From NCBI RefSeq assembly GCF_947494875.1, contig NZ_CANLWM010000004.1:310001-374000 (forward strand): 64,000 nt of DNA. Direction: 5' to 3'. Positions within the stretch are counted from its first letter, which is position 1; each line of letters begins with the position of its first letter. Shown piece by piece: positions 4,792-52,976 of the stretch. Source of the stretch: an uncultured Williamsia sp. (lineage in GTDB: Bacteria > Actinomycetota > Actinomycetes > Mycobacteriales > Mycobacteriaceae). Below the pieces are notes generated by a model. It ran no database searches. It was not told the origin of the DNA and saw only the letters and a program-made list of their open reading frames with translations. The position numbers and the translations under genes were made by a program.

Positions 4792-4951
4792 CTCCCCGAG
4801 CGTGCACCAGATCCCCGCGAGCGTGCGCTCCATCTCGCCGAGCGTGCAGTCGATGCGATCGATCGTGCGTCGCCACCCACTCGACGGGATCTGATGCACG
4901 GTCGACGGGATCTACCGCACGGTGGGCGGGATCTGGTGCACGCTCGGGGAG
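4792..4951. repeat. Inverted array of seven phased 21-nt units (array A)
   Basis: The gap between the convergent genes ending at 4785 and 4959 is filled by seven consecutive 21-nt units: 4796-4816, 4817-4837, 4838-4858, 4859-4879, 4880-4900, 4901-4921 and 4922-4942. Units 1-3 share CGAGCGTGC, unit 4 is transitional, and units 5-7 share GGGATCT and GCACG in the opposite orientation. The outer 24 bases (4792-4815 and 4928-4951) are perfect reverse complements, and units 2/6 and 3/5 also pair partly, so transcripts from either side could fold into one long hairpin with unit 4 as loop. It could act as a two-way terminator; the exact 21-nt phasing is unexplained. Confidence 0.85.
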
Positions 4952-39959: not shown

Positions 39960-40384
39960 CCGCCCCCACCGCACCACCGACGGTCGCCGTCGGTGACACG
40001 CTCCCGGAACTGCGGATCGAGGCGACACCGACTTTCATCGTCTCGACCGCCCTGGCCACCCGGGACTTCCAGGACGTCCACCACGACCGCGATCTCGCAC
40101 AGGCCAAGGGGTCCAAGGACATCTTCGTCAACATCCTCACCGACACCGGTCTGGTCGGCCGGTTCGTCACCGACTGGGCGGGTCAGCGCGCGCAGATCCG
40201 GTCGATCACACTGCGACTCGGGGTTCCCTGGTACGCCTACGACGCGATGGTGATGACGGGGACCGTGACGGCCCTCGACGCCGGTGTCGCGACCGTCGAC
40301 GTCGTCGGGACGAACGCGCTCGGCAAGCACGTCACCTCGACGGTCACGGTCGTCCTCGACCGCACCGCGCAGGACGCGTCATGA
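39956..40384 (+). CDS. chsH1: ChsH1-like MaoC hydratase subunit
   Basis: A 142-residue single-hotdog MaoC protein. FIVSTALATRDFQDVHHDRD and GSKDIFVNILTDTGLVGRFV contain the hydratase motif with the Asp/His catalytic pair (D-x-x-x-x-H), which lies in this subunit of the ChsH1-ChsH2 heterotetramer. Equivalent to Rv3541c (129 residues). It is enclosed by ATGA overlaps at both ends (with chsH2 and ltp2), so translation is tightly coupled. Confidence 0.93.
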   Translation: MTAPTAPPTVAVGDTLPELRIEATPTFIVSTALATRDFQDVHHDRDLAQAKGSKDIFVNILTDTGLVGRFVTDWAGQRAQIRSITLRLGVPWYAYDAMVMTGTVTALDAGVATVDVVGTNALGKHVTSTVTVVLDRTAQDAS

Positions 40385-41559
40385 CCCGCTTCGCACTGTC
40401 GGGTGCCGCGGCGATCGTCGGTATCGGTGCCACCGACTTCTCGAAGGACTCCGGCCGCAGCGAGCTGCGTCTCGCTGCGGAGGCGGTGACCGCGGCTGTC
40501 GCCGACGCCGGGCTGACGCCCGCCGACGTCGACGGTCTCGTCTCGTTCACGATGGACACCAACACCGAGATCGCCGTGGCGCGTGCCGCCGGCATCGGCG
40601 AGCTGACCTACTTCTCGCGCATCCACTACGGCGGCGGTGCAGCGTGTTCCACCGTCCAGCAGGCAGCGATGGCCGTCGCGACCGGTGTGGCCGACGTCGT
40701 CGTCGCCTACCGGGCGTTCAACGAGCGGTCGGGGATGCGGTTCGGGCAGGTCAACGCCGGCCTGGCCGCGCAGGACAACTCCTCGGGCACCGACAACGCG
40801 TTCAGCTATCCGCACGGGTTGTCGACGCCGGCGGCGTTCGTGGCCATGGTCGCCCAGCGGTACATGCACGAGTACGGCGCCACGAGTGAGGATTTCGGGC
40901 GGGTCGCCGTCGTCGACCGCAAGCACGCCGCGGTGAACCCGAACGCCTTCTTCCTCGGCAAGCCGATCACCCTGGAGGACCATCAGAACTCGCGGTGGAT
41001 CGCCGAGCCGCTGCACCTGCTGGACTGCTGTCAGGAGTCGGACGGCGGTGTGGCGCTGGTGATCACGTCGCCGGAGCGGGCGAGGGATCTGCCGCACACG
41101 CCGGTGACGATCGCGGGCGCCGCATCGGGGAGCGGTCAGGACCAGTACATCATGACCAGCTACTACCGCGACGACCTCGCGGGACTGCCCGAGATGGGGC
41201 TGGTCGGCCGACAGCTGTGGGACCAGTCGGGTCTGGGCCCGGACGACATGGACGTCGCCGTCCTCTACGACCACTTCACCCCGTACACCCTGATGCAACT
41301 CGAGGAACTCGGCTTCTGCGGCCGGGGCGAGGCCAAGGACCTCGTCCGCGAGCCCGGCGCGCTCGAGGTGGGGGGCCGTCTGCCCCTCAACACCCACGGC
41401 GGGCAGCTCGGCGAGGCCTACATCCACGGGATGAACGGCATCGCCGAGGCGGTCCGTCAGCTGCGCGGGACCTCGGTCAACCAGGTCCCCGACGCCCACC
41501 GCGCCGTCGTCACGGCCGGTACCGGAGTCCCCACGAGCGGATTGGTTCTCACGCGATGA
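40381..41559 (+). CDS. ltp2: Ltp2-like steroid side-chain aldolase (thiolase fold)
   Basis: A 392-residue thiolase-superfamily protein of the SCP-x/Ltp group (Rv3540c, 386 residues). IVGIGATDFSKDSGRSELRL at the N-terminus, YGGGAACSTVQQAAMAVATG and the C-terminal LNTHGGQLGEAYIHGMNGIA are Ltp marks. In Ltp2 the activity is retro-aldol cleavage of the 17-hydroxy-3-oxo-pregnenyl-carboxyl-CoA to androstenedione and propionyl-CoA, carried out in complex with the DUF35 domain of ChsH2, encoded two genes upstream. ATGA overlaps join it to chsH1 and to the following CoA ligase. Confidence 0.93.
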   Translation: MTRFALSGAAAIVGIGATDFSKDSGRSELRLAAEAVTAAVADAGLTPADVDGLVSFTMDTNTEIAVARAAGIGELTYFSRIHYGGGAACSTVQQAAMAVATGVADVVVAYRAFNERSGMRFGQVNAGLAAQDNSSGTDNAFSYPHGLSTPAAFVAMVAQRYMHEYGATSEDFGRVAVVDRKHAAVNPNAFFLGKPITLEDHQNSRWIAEPLHLLDCCQESDGGVALVITSPERARDLPHTPVTIAGAASGSGQDQYIMTSYYRDDLAGLPEMGLVGRQLWDQSGLGPDDMDVAVLYDHFTPYTLMQLEELGFCGRGEAKDLVREPGALEVGGRLPLNTHGGQLGEAYIHGMNGIAEAVRQLRGTSVNQVPDAHRAVVTAGTGVPTSGLVLTR

Positions 41560-43229
41560 CCGACACCACCCTGCCGCCCACCACCGAGAGCACCGCCGAG
41601 GTCGCGACCGACTTCAACCTCGGCGACATCTTCGAGGCCATCGCCGACGCCGTCCCCGACCGGCCCGCGATCGGCTTCGAGGGCACCGACGTCAGCTACC
41701 GCGAGCTCGACGAGCGTGCCAACGCCATGGGGCATCTGCTGCAGTCCCAGGGGATCGGTCCGGGCGACCACGTCGCCCTGTACCTGAAGAACAGCCTGGA
41801 ACACGTCTACGCCATGGTCGCGCTTCTGAAGATCGGCGCGACGTCGGTGAACGTGAACTACCGCTACACCCCGGCCGAGCTGACCTACATCCTCGACAAC
41901 GCGGACGCCACAGCGGTGTTCGTCGAGCTGCCCGAGCATCAGCGGACGCTTGCCGCGGTGCTGGCGGACAGTCGGGTGCGCACGGTCCTCGTCGTGGGCG
42001 ACGTCCTCGACGAGCTCACCGAGGCGGCCGGAGACGGCGTGTCGGTGGTGCCTGTATATCTGGACGAGCACAGCACCGCACGGGATTTCCCGCCCCGCAG
42101 CGGTGACCAGCTCTACCTGCTCTACACCGGCGGCACCACCGGGTACCCGAAGGGCGTCATTTGGCGCCACGACGACTTCTTCCACAAGCCGCTGTCGGGC
42201 GGGAACCCGTACGGCCCGGAGTCGTTGACCGACCTCGCCGCGGTCGCGCACAACGCGAGCACGTTCGCGCCGCTGTCGTTCCTGCTCGCCGCCCCGCTCA
42301 TGCACGGCGCGGCGATCTACTCCCTGTTCATGTTCTTCATCAACGGCGGGCGGCTGGTGCTGCAGCGCGACTTCGTCGCGTCGAGGGTCCTCGACGCCGT
42401 GGAGGACAACGGGGTGCAGATCATCCTCATCGTCGGCGACGGGATGGGTGCGCCCCTGGTGGAGGAGATGGAACGCCGCCAGGCCGCCGGCACTCTCGAC
42501 GTGTCCGGGTTGCTGTCCGTCACCAACGGCGGTGCCATCTGGTCGACGTCGGTGCGGGAGCGGATGCGTGCGGTCAAGCCGGACCTGTGGTTCCGGGACA
42601 ACTTCGGTGCCTCGGAGACAGGCAACGACGGCGAACTGTTCATGGACGAGCACGGCACGCTGCGCTCGGCGCCGAGCCCCGGGATGACCGTGCTCGACGA
42701 GGGGCTCGACCCGCTCGAGCCGGGCTCCGACGAGATCGGGTACATCGCCCGCGTCGGCCGCGTCCCGCTCGGCTACTACAAAGACCCCGAGAAATCCGAG
42801 CGCACCTTCGTGACCCTGCCCGACGGCCGTCGGGCTGCCGTCCTCGGCGACATGGGGCGCCTCGAGGCCGACGGGAGCATCGTCTTCCTCGGCCGTGGTT
42901 CGGGCTGCATCAACACCGGTGGCGAGAAGGTGTTCCCCGAGGAGGTCGAGGCGGCCGTCCAGGGTCACCCGGGAGTGCGCGACGTCCTCGTCGTCGGCGT
43001 CCCCGACGAGCGGTTCGGACAGAAGGTCGCGGCCGTCATCTCGGCGCCCGACGGAGCGCAGCCCCCGTCCCTGGAGGATCTGCAGGCGCACTGCCGTCAG
43101 ACCCTGGCGGGGTACAAGGTGCCGCGCGTCGTCGTCGCCGTCGACACGGTCCGGCGGACCCCGGCCGGCAAGGCCGACTACCGATGGGCCGGTGCGACCG
43201 CGACCGCGGCACTGTCGCCGACCACCTAG
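41556..43229 (+). CDS. FadD19-like steroid side-chain acyl-CoA ligase
   Basis: A 557-residue ANL-family ligase. The P-loop YLLYTGGTTGYPKGVIWRHD, the FGASETGNDG segment, GRGSGCINTGGEKVFPEEVE and the catalytic Lys region RRTPAGKADYRW are all present. It resembles FadD19 (Rv3515c) and FadD17, which activate the carboxylated sterol side chain (C26 and C24 respectively); I cannot tell which length it prefers. It is the last gene of the chs operon, with an ATGA overlap with ltp2. In M. tuberculosis these ligases lie away from the ltp2 operon, so this union is a local feature. Directly after its stop begins repeat array B. Confidence 0.9.
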   Translation: MTDTTLPPTTESTAEVATDFNLGDIFEAIADAVPDRPAIGFEGTDVSYRELDERANAMGHLLQSQGIGPGDHVALYLKNSLEHVYAMVALLKIGATSVNVNYRYTPAELTYILDNADATAVFVELPEHQRTLAAVLADSRVRTVLVVGDVLDELTEAAGDGVSVVPVYLDEHSTARDFPPRSGDQLYLLYTGGTTGYPKGVIWRHDDFFHKPLSGGNPYGPESLTDLAAVAHNASTFAPLSFLLAAPLMHGAAIYSLFMFFINGGRLVLQRDFVASRVLDAVEDNGVQIILIVGDGMGAPLVEEMERRQAAGTLDVSGLLSVTNGGAIWSTSVRERMRAVKPDLWFRDNFGASETGNDGELFMDEHGTLRSAPSPGMTVLDEGLDPLEPGSDEIGYIARVGRVPLGYYKDPEKSERTFVTLPDGRRAAVLGDMGRLEADGSIVFLGRGSGCINTGGEKVFPEEVEAAVQGHPGVRDVLVVGVPDERFGQKVAAVISAPDGAQPPSLEDLQAHCRQTLAGYKVPRVVVAVDTVRRTPAGKADYRWAGATATAALSPTT

Positions 43230-43397
43230 CCATCTGTCGGGCACCTGGAGCCATTCGTTGGGCGTTTGGAGCCATTGGTTGGGCAGCGGGAACGACCCGT
43301 CGGGCACGTGGTGTCCATGGCCTGTCTCATGTGCCCAACGAACGGCTCCTGGTGCCCAACGAACGGTTCCGGGTGCCCAATGAACGGGCGCTCAGTC
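43230..43397. repeat. Inverted array of eight phased 21-nt units (array B)
   Basis: The first base after the ligase stop starts a run of 21-nt units: 43230-43250, 43251-43271, 43272-43292, 43293-43313, 43314-43334, 43335-43355, 43356-43376 and 43377-43397, the last running over the stop codon of the convergent MFS gene. Units 1-4 share CGTTGGGC and TGGAG; unit 5 is transitional; units 6-8 share CCAACGAACGG, the reverse complement of the first type. Same period, length and symmetry as array A at 4792, but an unrelated unit sequence. Confidence 0.85.
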
Positions 43398-45059
43398 CTC
43401 CGTCGCGCGAGCCGCGCCGGTGTCGATCGGTGCGGCGTCCTGCGCCTCGGGCATCCGGGTGGGCGTCCAGAACGCCAGGACAACCGATCCGACGAGGACG
43501 ATCGAGCCGAGCACGACGTAGGCCTGGCTCATGGGCTGCAGGAACGCGTTCCGCGCGCCGGATGCGATGGTGTCCGCGACTGGACCGGGGATGCGTTGGC
43601 GCAGTTGGTCGGACACCGCCGACGCCTCGGCCAGCGACCGACCGATGCGGTCGGTGATGACGTCGATCTGACCCAGGATCGACTGTCCCTCCGCGACGCG
43701 ACCGGCCGACGAGAGCTGGTCGGCGACAGCCCGGAGCTGTTCGCGGGTGGCCTCGACCGTCCCGGCGATCCGGGTGGTGAACCCTGCCGCGACGATGCTG
43801 CCGCCCAACGCCATCCCGATCGCGGCACCGAGCTCGCGGGAGGTGTCGTTGACCGCCGATGCGACGCCCTGGTTGTCCGCGGGGGTGGAGACCATGATGC
43901 CGGTCGTCGCGGGTGCGGTGCTCAGCCCGAGCCCGATCGCCATCACCGACACCTGGGCGGTGATGACCCAGTAGTCGTCGGAGTCGAAGACACCGAGGAT
44001 GACGATCCCCGCGCCGAACAGGAACATCCCCGTCGGCAGCACCGCGCGGAAACTGAACCGCACCGCGAGCCAATTGCCCAGGAGCGACGTCACCATGACG
44101 ATCAGCACCAGCGGGATGAGCGCGACGGCGGACCGCAGCGGCGAGTACCCCATGATCAGCTGGAACCGCTGCAGGATCAGGAAGAACACCCCGAAAGACC
44201 CGACGAACTGCAGCGCGATCGCCAGCGATCCCGCTCCGAACGCGCGTCGCCGGAAGAGTCGGACGTCGAGGAGGGTGCGCCGCCCGCGCAGCTGCAACGC
44301 CACGAACACACCGCCGAGAGCGAGGCCGCCGATCAGGCCGACGAGGACGAGGGGGTCGGCCCAGCCGCGGACCGGGCCCTCGATCAGACCGAAGACGACC
44401 GCGGCGACGGCCGCCGCGGAGGCGATCGACCCGAGGACGTCGAACGGTGGCGGGTCGGAGTCCCGCGAGGTGCCGATGGTCAGTGCCAGGGCCGCCATGA
44501 CCCCGGCGGCGATCGCGAAGGCGATGAAGATCGAGTGCCAGGGGAAGAACTCGAGCAGCAGGCCCGTCACGAAGAAGCCGATGATGGCGGCCCCGCCCGC
44601 TACGCCGGCCCAGATGCTCACCGCGAGAGGGCGTTTGCTCTCCGGGACACCGGAGGTGATCAGCGACAGCGTTGCCGGCATCACCAGTGCCGCACCCGCG
44701 CCGGCGACGACGCGGGTGGCGATGATCTCCGTGGGGGACGACAGCAGGATCGCCGCGACGGACGCCGCGGCGAACACCACCAGGCCGACGACGAGGACGC
44801 CGCGTCGGCCGAAGCGGTCGCCGAGCGCGCCGCAGGGAAGGAGCAGGGCCGCCAGGGTGAGCGTGTATCCGTCGACGAGCCAGGTGATCTGCGTGGACGA
44901 CGCACCGATGTCGGGCGCGATCTCCGAGAGCGCGATGTTCAACGAGGCCATCGCCGCCACCACCGCACTGAGTGCGGAGCAGGCTACGACGAGGAGCCAG
45001 ATGTCCCGCAGGGTGAGGCGATCGGCGGCCGTGGTGCTCGTCGCGGACGTGATGGTCAT
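43392..45059 (-). CDS. MFS drug:H+ antiporter, DHA2 (14-TM) family
   Basis: A 555-residue transporter with about 14 hydrophobic segments. LNIALSEIAPDIGASSTQIT with WLVDGYTLTLAALLLPCGAL is motif D1, GDRFGRRGVLVVGLVVFAAA is motif A, and ISTPADNQGVASAVNDTSRE marks motif C-like QacA/EmrB relatives. After segment 13 there is an unusual 90-residue outside loop with short heptad-like Glu/Gln/Ile content (ATREQLRAVADQLSSAGRVA). It probably exports cationic or lipophilic drugs. Divergent from the micro-ORF and TetR gene at 45231-46079. Confidence 0.93.
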   Translation of the reverse strand: MTITSATSTTAADRLTLRDIWLLVVACSALSAVVAAMASLNIALSEIAPDIGASSTQITWLVDGYTLTLAALLLPCGALGDRFGRRGVLVVGLVVFAAASVAAILLSSPTEIIATRVVAGAGAALVMPATLSLITSGVPESKRPLAVSIWAGVAGGAAIIGFFVTGLLLEFFPWHSIFIAFAIAAGVMAALALTIGTSRDSDPPPFDVLGSIASAAAVAAVVFGLIEGPVRGWADPLVLVGLIGGLALGGVFVALQLRGRRTLLDVRLFRRRAFGAGSLAIALQFVGSFGVFFLILQRFQLIMGYSPLRSAVALIPLVLIVMVTSLLGNWLAVRFSFRAVLPTGMFLFGAGIVILGVFDSDDYWVITAQVSVMAIGLGLSTAPATTGIMVSTPADNQGVASAVNDTSRELGAAIGMALGGSIVAAGFTTRIAGTVEATREQLRAVADQLSSAGRVAEGQSILGQIDVITDRIGRSLAEASAVSDQLRQRIPGPVADTIASGARNAFLQPMSQAYVVLGSIVLVGSVVLAFWTPTRMPEAQDAAPIDTGAARATED

Positions 45060-45150
45060 GCGTCAGGCCTCGGCGTCGTGGCGGTCGTGACCGCGGTGTT
45101 GTGTGATCGTGACCCCGCGACACGCCCGGCCTACCGTGCACCATATGTAA

Positions 45151-45182
45151 CTTGTGTCACTCTGGTTGTCGCTAGTCACAAG
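45151..45182. promoter_or_regulatory. Inverted repeat in the MFS promoter region
   Basis: CTTGTG (45151-45156) and CACAAG (45177-45182), 20 bases apart, in the spacer between the MFS start at 45059 and the micro-ORF at 45231. The centre-to-centre distance of 26 bp is compatible with two operator halves or two dimers. Tentative. Confidence 0.4.
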
Positions 45183-45230
45183 ATCACTCATTCCGGGTCG
45201 ACGCAGCCCCGGGCGAAAGGAACTGTGATC

Positions 45231-45362
45231 ATGGCCGCGACTCTCCCCCGCGACACATCCCACTCGAGCACGTCGGTCCGGATATGGCGGATCGTCGCCA
45301 TGCTCGCCCCTCTCGCTGCACTGGTCATCGGAATGCTGCTGGTCGTCGGCTCGATGGGCTGA
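45231..45362 (+). CDS. 43-residue single-pass membrane microprotein
   Basis: A 43-residue ORF behind GCGAAAGGA: a hydrophilic N-terminus (MAATLPRDTSHSSTSV), RIWR, then one hydrophobic helix (about 21-41, IVAMLAPLAALVIGMLLVVG) and a very short tail. It lies alone between the MFS and TetR genes on the TetR strand. Its transcription would be under the same divergent control as the MFS exporter, so it may be an accessory subunit or a stress peptide. Evidence is composition, ribosome site and position only; no family recognised. Confidence 0.6.
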   Translation: MAATLPRDTSHSSTSVRIWRIVAMLAPLAALVIGMLLVVGSMG

Positions 45363-45383
45363 GGGCCATCGTCCCTCTCCGAC

Positions 45384-45418
45384 CGAGACTAACAGCATTT
45401 TTGAGACAGGTAGTCTCG
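45384..45418. promoter_or_regulatory. Nested palindromes upstream of the TetR gene at 45465
   Basis: CGAGACTA (45384-45391) and TAGTCTCG (45411-45418) form a perfect outer repeat; GAGAC-AGGTA-GTCTC (45403-45417) forms an inner one sharing the right arm. The T-rich spacer contrasts with the GC-rich surroundings. Probable TetR autoregulatory operators. Confidence 0.65.
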
Positions 45419-45464
45419 TCACGTCCGGACCCGATCCGGCCTTCGTGACAGGCGGTGTCCCACC

Positions 45465-46079
45465 ATGCGACGGACCGATCCACGCCCCGCGCGGTCGCGG
45501 GCGAAGATCGTCGACGCCGCAGCCGCCCTCGTCCGTGACCATGGGCCGACCGCCGTGGCGGTAGATGCGGTCATCGACGCGGCGGGGGTGTCGCGAGCGA
45601 CGTTCTACCGCCATTTCGCCGGCGTCACGGAACTCGTGGCGGCCGCCTTCGCGGTCGTGATCCCCTCCGCGTCGGCGCCGTCCGCGACCGGCTCCGTACA
45701 CGAGCGGCTCACCGAGCTCGTGCTCTCGCAGGCGCGTCTGTTCGCCGAGATCCCCGCCACGACCAGCGTTCTCGCGTGGCTGTCGCTCGGCGTCGACCTG
45801 GACGCGAGTTCACTGGACCGGGTCCGCGGCGGGGAGGGTGCCGAGATGCTCACGCTGCGTGAGCGCGTGGCCGACCGGTTCCTGCGGCCCTTCGACGAGG
45901 TGCTGTCGAGCCCCGACGCGGTCGCGGAACTCGGTGACGTCGACAGCGTGTCGGCGGTCGCCCTCCTGCTCGGTCCGCTCGCCATGGGACGGCTGAGCAC
46001 TCTGCCGTCGTTCGACTACGAGGCGGTGGCGCGGGCCGCGGTGGACGGGTTCATGGCGGTCCACACCCGCGACAGCTGA
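45465..46079 (+). CDS. TetR-family transcriptional regulator
   Basis: A 204-residue TetR protein. Helix-turn-helix at about 18-60 (AALVRDHGPTAVAVDAVIDA then AGVSRATFYRHFAGVTELVA); a helical ligand domain follows. It lies between palindromes and the MFS/microprotein genes, and probably represses the exporter. Its 3' end meets the convergent chsH3 gene with a 4-bp gap, thus it separates the two halves of the steroid region. Confidence 0.9.
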   Translation: MRRTDPRPARSRAKIVDAAAALVRDHGPTAVAVDAVIDAAGVSRATFYRHFAGVTELVAAAFAVVIPSASAPSATGSVHERLTELVLSQARLFAEIPATTSVLAWLSLGVDLDASSLDRVRGGEGAEMLTLRERVADRFLRPFDEVLSSPDAVAELGDVDSVSAVALLLGPLAMGRLSTLPSFDYEAVARAAVDGFMAVHTRDS

Positions 46080-51602: not shown

Positions 51603-51796
51603 CCGCGTTCCCGCCCCGATCTCGCCGATCCGCGCCGTGCACGCCGCGGGTCGACGCCGACGACGCGGATCCGCTGTCTCCGCGCGGATGCTGCCGCACC
51701 CGCGCCGTGCCGGCCGACCCGCCGCGGATCTCGCCGTCCCGCGCTGTACCCGCCCGCCCGCCCGTGCTCGGCGCGGGGAGACGGGGAGGGCGCGGG
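51603..51796. repeat. Degenerate GC-rich inverted repeats in a convergent gap (array C)
   Basis: The 194-bp gap between hsaF and the convergent AbiEi-like gene has related but irregularly spaced segments: GATCTCGCCG at 51618 and 51727, CGCGCCGTGC at 51631 and 51701, a variant GCGCTGTACC at 51741, and an inverted copy CGTGCTCGGCGCG at about 51763-51775. It looks like arrays A and B in position and mirror layout, but no exact period is kept. Confidence 0.5.
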
Positions 51797-52783: not shown

Positions 52784-52976
52784 GAACCCGCGCCGGGTAC
52801 GGCGCGGAACCGTGCGAACGACGCGGGACTGCGTGAACGGCGCGGGACTGCGTGAACGGCGCGGGACTGCGAGAACGGTGCGGGTTCTCCGGCTCACCAC
52901 CGAACCCGCGTGGACCGTGCCAACCCGCGCCGGGCACGACTCGGGACTGCGAGAACGACGCGGGTTCGGCTACATG
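52784..52976. repeat. 19-nt tandem repeats with flanking inverted copies (array D)
   Basis: GAACGRCGCGGGACTGCGW repeats with an exact 19-nt period at 52816, 52835, 52854 and 52873; GAACC-type half copies precede at 52784 and 52807. Further right come AACCCGCG copies and a reversed CGCGGGTT, so outer parts are inverted. The array lies between two genes on the minus strand (VOC stop at 52970, AbiEi-like start at 52726), unlike A-C, and overlaps the VOC stop region. Confidence 0.75.

Follow-up and report, generated by a model that had tools for sequence, protein, structure and literature searches.

A mirrored 21-nt repeat array of Williamsia as a probable solo copy of a two-part element with a predicted AbiEi-DUF559/Vsr-like nuclease

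A mirror array of 21-nt units between two convergent genes of a Williamsia genome, here called array B, is best read as the solo form, without nuclease gene, of a two-part element whose nuclease would drive the upkeep and spread of its arrays (probability about 0.58). The full element consists of an inward-pointing tandem array, whose units measure 21 nt or, in some families, 22 nt, followed by the gene coding for an AbiEi-DUF559/Vsr-like nuclease and by the same array inverted, and it sits chiefly between convergent genes. Within a Williamsia genome, each unit family is accompanied by a single nuclease gene, whose location is conserved, solo arrays of the family being scattered at gene ends. 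Sequence comparison shows the full and solo forms, the matching inverted arms, the unit type that follows the nuclease clade, an array in G000 and W. serinedens at a junction that measures at most 10 nt in five relatives, and a nuclease-less mirror at a junction where relatives have the nuclease; from it we infer unit recognition, cutting and nuclease-driven spread. The window is the whole 64,000-nt stretch analysed (G000:C4:310001-374000), G000 being its source genome of 4.77 Mb.

Array B is composed of eight units of 21 nt. The sequence-only reading had placed this 168-nt mirror array at 43230-43397, an extent that shifts to 43227-43394 when the units are set in register; the period, the eight units and the layout (units 1 to 4 one way, unit 5 transitional, the last three inverted) are confirmed, the fourth unit being weak. 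The forward units resemble CCATTCGTTGGGC. The neighbours, taken from a home-made gene caller and identified by Pfam, are convergent as had been proposed, an AMP-binding ligase gene against an MFS transporter gene. The array does overlap the MFS stop codon (43392-43394, minus strand, within the final unit), but it does not begin after the ligase stop codon as had been thought, since that TAG (43227-43229) sits inside unit 1. The features are as follows:

41556 to 43229, plus strand: AMP-binding ligase gene (Pfam), stop codon within the first array B unit
43227 to 43310, plus strand: left arm of array B, four units CC(A/G)TTCGTTGGGC on the plus strand, the fourth weak
43311 to 43331, no strand: transitional unit of array B and mirror centre, the position of the nuclease gene in full elements (centre from comparison)
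43332 to 43394, minus strand: right arm of array B, three inverted units, TGCCCAACGAACGG on the plus strand
43392 to 45059, minus strand: MFS transporter gene (Pfam), stop codon within the last array B unit

The lag-21 score of array B is 29.4; across lags 8-60, none of 1000 dinucleotide shuffles scored above 13. Its mirror identity (58.2%; maximum of 300 shuffles, 56.8%) only just exceeds chance when taken alone. No Rfam match at E up to 1 was obtained for positions 40000-46000 of the window.

Unit B is not confined to this junction. Allowing at most one mismatch, TGCCCAACGAACGG has 72 matches in G000 versus 5 for the reversed control, and the unit is dispersed over 27 sites of this genome (counted by hand; a few matches lie inside called genes). 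The idea that units arise anew at each locus finds no support in this recurrence, nor in the agreement of unit type with nuclease clade described below. It had also been held that the case would be refuted if unit B were a known dispersed family, and the result comes near to this: dispersed it is, at those 27 sites, although no printed description of it was found. Nor are arrays A and B the only two of the genome, as the same architecture with different unit sequences recurs well beyond both.

Tandem pairs of B units turned up in 17 stretches of named genomes, of which 16 belong to Williamsia serinedens DSM 45037 and one to W. deligens DSM 44902. B units number 74, 110 and 14 in the three genomes that carry a B-clade gene and at most 2 in 58 others, and A dimers number 72, 90 and 40 in three genomes and at most 1 in 58 others, although these counts and the presence of the nuclease are not independent, because the three genomes share genes by kinship. 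F units were matched 7 times, versus once for the reversed control, in each of the samples from G001 (400 kb) and G007 (280 kb), and not at all in the samples from G000 and G006; the dispersed F units predicted for G004 were absent from 120 kb of it. Predicted dispersed E units did not appear in the samples taken, and the dispersal predicted for the G006 variant of B was not seen in its sample. C-type runs are present in G002 (W. serinedens), which carries no C-clade nuclease. A generic motif, CGAGYGKGC in pairs spaced by 20-22 nt, recurs in every one of the 8 Williamsia genomes, with counts between 2 and 114 (reversed control, 0-1), and a scan of 301 family genomes found the pair strong in a few genomes of three other genera. 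One genome of the family, G144, has 155 generic-unit matches, and the one fetched copy of its two nuclease genes lacks arrays.

The other array of the window, array A (4795-4949), is built of another dispersed unit, CGAGCGTGCACCAGATCCCGT, and has two arms:

4795 to 4857, plus strand: left arm of array A, three units like CGAGCGTGCACCAGATCCC
4874 to 4949, minus strand: right arm of array A, inverted units

On sight the A and B units were suspected to be kin, and this was rejected: the consensus units share 8 of 21 positions in register, a value equalled by 386 of 2000 shuffles, no better than chance. The earlier statement that unit B bears no resemblance to A thus holds for the consensus units. 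The nucleases associated with A and B, encoded at G000:C8:43146-44051 and G000:C2:52753-53667 respectively, are homologous, at about 47-50% identity, and it is this homology that connects the two units.

The candidate partner was found at one B site (L034), where a gene lies between two B arrays and encodes a protein with an AbiEi-like part followed by one resembling DUF559/MTES_1575. The AbiEi-like part is matched by PADLOC AbiEi models with E down to 6e-18, and AbiEi_1 is above its cut-off in another copy (L205). Domain scores of the nuclease-like part, from which the putative active site is assigned, are weak, the MTES_1575 match being below its cut-off, and so are the structure-library matches (3hrl, E 0.52; 3r3p, a homing endonuclease structure, E = 1). 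MTES_1575 has been described as a Vsr-fold nuclease domain (PMC3710099). Residues E197, D234, K241, D247 and H252 are invariant in all 20 copies of the family, which come from 8 Williamsia genomes, and by analogy some of them may be catalytic. Values of dN/dS range from 0.06 to 0.16 in 9 nuclease pairs, two of them with dS above 1, and point to purifying selection on the gene. The AbiEi-like matches also suit an AbiE-like defence or toxin-antitoxin locus in which the arrays are operator and decoy sites. Such a locus is very improbable, given that the arrays lie at gene 3' ends and not before promoters (none in 107 divergent gaps) and occur at many sites devoid of the gene.

The association of this gene with arrays is strong. 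Arrays of 21/22 nt on both flanks reached a score of at least 13 in 16 of 20 nuclease copies and in 2 of 1473 sampled genes, and a score of at least 20 in 13 of 20 and 1 of 1473, respectively; the 3' flank scored was 330 nt long in the nucleases, as against 300 nt in the control genes. By eye, both arms are present at 18 of the 20 copies, the exceptions being L193, masked on one side, and L208 (G005), a 34% outlier of the family without arrays. In all 32 elements compared, which come from four genera and were chosen as array-bearing, one arm has the unit of the other in inverted form and the two periods agree. The genes between arrays are not always nucleases: a CN_hydrolase, an oxidoreductase and a methyltransferase (L080) also occur, the last being the control gene that scored at least 20, which from its sequence we take to be a methyltransferase gene.

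G002 lacks the CN_hydrolase gene found between two B arrays in G000, and its flanks are joined by one B array (L126 12288-12323 versus L032 2207-3016). Elsewhere in the window there are a 19-nt tandem array of 4.5 copies (52799-52884) and a 39-nt repeat (51683-51762), and the sequences flanking these repeats match both flanks of the array-less L208. A multi-copy HNH-like gene of 421 aa (L045:3177-4439), presumably 13E12-like, occurs 8 times in G000 and gave 8 matches in G002. In G000, G002 and G006 it often has an array of type B or C just on its 5' side, as in 9 of the 18 copies inspected from these genomes. The Pfam search with the L045 copy gave no match, and one of the eight G000 copies overlaps a DUF222 match (C2:566828). 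As a partner of the arrays the HNH gene was rejected: an array lies within about 150 nt on the 5' side in 9 of 27 copies (3 of 7 in G000, 3 of 6 in G002, 3 of 5 in G006, none of 9 in other genomes) and on both sides in 0 of 27, and the gene looks like a neighbour because arrays are never found on both its sides.

Comparison of orthologous junctions reveals full, solo and empty states. At the window junction, the ligase and MFS genes adjoin in six other genomes. G002 has a B array there, which by eye comprises two units in one direction and four in the opposite one, and five genomes have no array, their genes being 9 (G006), 9 (G007), 7 (G005), 10 (G001) and -4 nt (G004) apart. Seventeen orthologous regions were selected for having B hits in G000 as well as in G002; in these, runs are present in both genomes and the unit numbers differ. 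A second junction (junction 2) carries a nuclease with arrays between the same two genes in seven genomes. The units are of type C in G000 and G006, of type F in G001, G004, G005 and G007, and of another kind in G023, which belongs to another genus. In G002 this junction lacks the nuclease and has a mirror whose B-type units, read partly by eye, number 2+2. At junction 1 (L034), the full element is present in G000, G002 and G006, and 22-46 nt without array separate the genes in five others. The B and C nuclease clades are sisters, a relationship that would be compatible with duplication from junction 2 into junction 1.

These states can also be read in the reverse order: older arrays of other origin would have been invaded at the mirror centre by a homing endonuclease, which then copied itself into cognate solo arrays. 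The nuclease gene does lie at the mirror centre, it has that weak similarity to homing endonuclease structure 3r3p (E = 1), and G002 has a nuclease-less array where seven genomes hold the nuclease. However, each of the 8 genomes has one nuclease gene per unit family despite many free solo arrays, and junction 1 is full or array-less, never solo, in 8 genomes. We consider reversed homing improbable.

The position of the arrays was examined in a systematic 764-kb sample of G000, made up of the window and 35 stretches of 20 kb (array score at least 14). Among convergent gaps of at least 50 nt, 7 of 32 contain arrays of 21/22 nt; for tandem gaps the figure is 6 of 183, and the 107 divergent gaps contain none. 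Their internal anatomy was studied in all G000 stretches examined, partly chosen for having units. There, 82 of 102 runs (20 dropped) lie in gaps with both neighbours called, amounting to 58 gaps, of which 23 hold both orientations and 35 are one-armed. Arrays start within 30 nt of a stop codon in 39 of 65 cases. Two-armed gaps point inward in 21 of 23, irrespective of the direction of the neighbouring genes. Polarity set by the 3' end of each gene is rejected as the whole cause, and the inward order belongs to the element, because two-armed arrays in tandem and divergent gaps and the arms of nuclease elements also point inward. Three further tandem repeats at convergent gene ends, with periods of 19, 25 and 26 nt (L060 3030-3247, L063 6715-6822 and L085 153-286), were kept outside the nuclease-linked family. 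In L079 (3311-3839), what reads like a tRNA gene is followed by repeats of about 49 nt resembling its 3' end.

A preference for convergent gaps (7 of 32), with arrays beginning near stop codons, is also what a bidirectional terminator or 3'-end stabiliser would give, whose RNA hairpin ends or protects both convergent transcripts and would be kept by the host for this role, the nuclease being a passenger in safe gaps. As RNA, array B is predicted to form a strong hairpin (-106.1 kcal/mol, z -8.4). This explanation is nevertheless unlikely. Arrays are one-armed in 35 of the 58 gaps with runs, opposite arms match each other no better than they match other sites, and five relatives manage without the array of the window. 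Furthermore, a separate hairpin lies between stop codon and array in 6 of 7 inspected segments of junction 2, which speaks against the array as terminator, and the agreement between unit type and nuclease clade is left unexplained.

The history of the arms can be traced from likeness at the variable columns of the units. Adjacent units of the same run score 0.585 (B) and 0.574 (A/D), versus 0.424 and 0.468 for units of other sites, non-adjacent units of one run reach only 0.465 and 0.445, and units of opposite arms 0.359 and 0.483. Adjacent units being the most alike, units multiply locally within an array; the claim that they are generated locally therefore stands for copying within an array and falls for the origin of units at each locus. 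The opposite arm is not more alike, so the arms are not copies of each other; inverted copying was rejected on these values, and pairing maintained by compensation is unsupported in the unit comparison. Likeness between adjacent units, together with unit numbers that differ between orthologous G000 and G002 sites, would be expected of ordinary slippage repeats (VNTR) with no dedicated partner as well. Slippage as the whole explanation is hardly credible: the same unit occurs at 27 sites, order is inward in 21 of 23 two-armed gaps, a nuclease sits at the centre, and dispersed units following a nuclease clade contradict it.

By nuclease copy, the units are CCGTTCGTTGGGC (B), CGTCGAGTGGGC (C), CGAGCGTGCACCAGATC (A), a 22-nt unit (D), GTGTTGGGCC (E), CAGTTGGGCACGTA (F) and two in G003. 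The nine unit labels, assigned after the units had been seen, require 8 changes on the nuclease tree, the minimum possible; the F group is poorly supported on this tree (48/54). Much of the agreement between clade and unit is due to inheritance at a single locus in each clade. A comparison of 19 representatives that share less than 75% identity is less subject to this, and in it more distant proteins have more distant units (rho 0.21; 51 of 5000 permutations). A search of 29 family genomes, selected for being rich or poor in arrays, gave 97 nuclease matches. Thirty of these copies were fetched: arrays lie on both sides of 14, contig ends truncate 3, and 13, among them the G144 copy, have no arrays. 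In a tree of 46 copies, which excludes L208 and the copies cut by contig ends, the 33 array-bearing nucleases, from four genera, form one side of a branch supported at 99/96.

Under the two-part element as preferred here, the predicted nuclease would recognise the cognate unit, with the AbiEi-like part at its N terminus perhaps acting as reader, and would cut or nick at the arrays. Recombination repair among dispersed arrays would then add, remove and homogenise units, and would copy arrays into new 3' junctions. A period of 21 nt corresponds to two turns of DNA, and would fit binding along one face of the helix.

Among dispersed bacterial repeats with a dedicated enzyme gene, the REP/RAYT system is the best known. 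REPIN repeats form inverted pairs, the RAYT gene is mostly single-copy, and enzyme and cognate repeat co-vary (PMC3116915; PMC8266576). The Williamsia arrays resemble REP, BIME and REPIN sequences with their RAYT (TnpA-REP, REPtron) in being extragenic dispersed repeats in inverted pairs with potential hairpins, and resemble the REPtron in having a single-copy enzyme gene beside cognate repeats (G000 has a single B-clade gene for its 27 B sites). However, the REPtron repeats are palindromes of 20-50 nt and here tandem 21/22-nt units read one way within an arm, their consensus showing no palindrome by eye, and the enzyme is AbiEi-DUF559/Vsr-like. A search for the Y1 (HuH) transposase (Pfam PF01797) found none in the 8 genomes, the same search being positive in 5 of 14 control genomes, and RAYT was ruled out as partner. 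By analogy, REPIN/RAYT would be the nearest working model, with an unrelated enzyme here. Other known systems share single traits. A fold related to that of the Vsr-like (EDxHD) homing endonucleases is suggested by the DUF559/MTES_1575 matches and the weak ones to 3hrl and 3r3p; unlike those enzymes, the gene lies outside any intron or intein and has arrays on both flanks, and homing is only postulated for it. The N-terminal part is like AbiEi antitoxins, but is fused to a nuclease-like domain. Solo copies resemble the full element minus its gene, as MITEs do, yet the ends are arrays of tandem units in varying number.

No description of 21-nt mirror arrays tied to DUF559/AbiEi genes was found in the open literature, most subscription journals lying outside the search. 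We propose tentatively, with the balance close to even and tilted slightly towards doubt, that these loci represent a new class of bacterial two-part element, in which a Vsr/DUF559-type nuclease with an AbiEi-like reader would recognise its own 21-bp repeat and maintain and spread mirror arrays at gene ends, its specificity shifting with the repeat. If true, the class would have converged on the same arrangement as REP/RAYT and would supply many natural pairs of enzyme and target. A second, unrelated enzyme would then have the same kind of population structure, with a single gene, numerous repeat copies that lack it, and joint change of enzyme and repeat, which would imply that such partnerships arose more than once. 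The element would also provide natural series of nucleases and 21-22-bp units from which recognition rules could be read and tested, and would account for puzzling repeats at gene ends in no fewer than four genera of the family.
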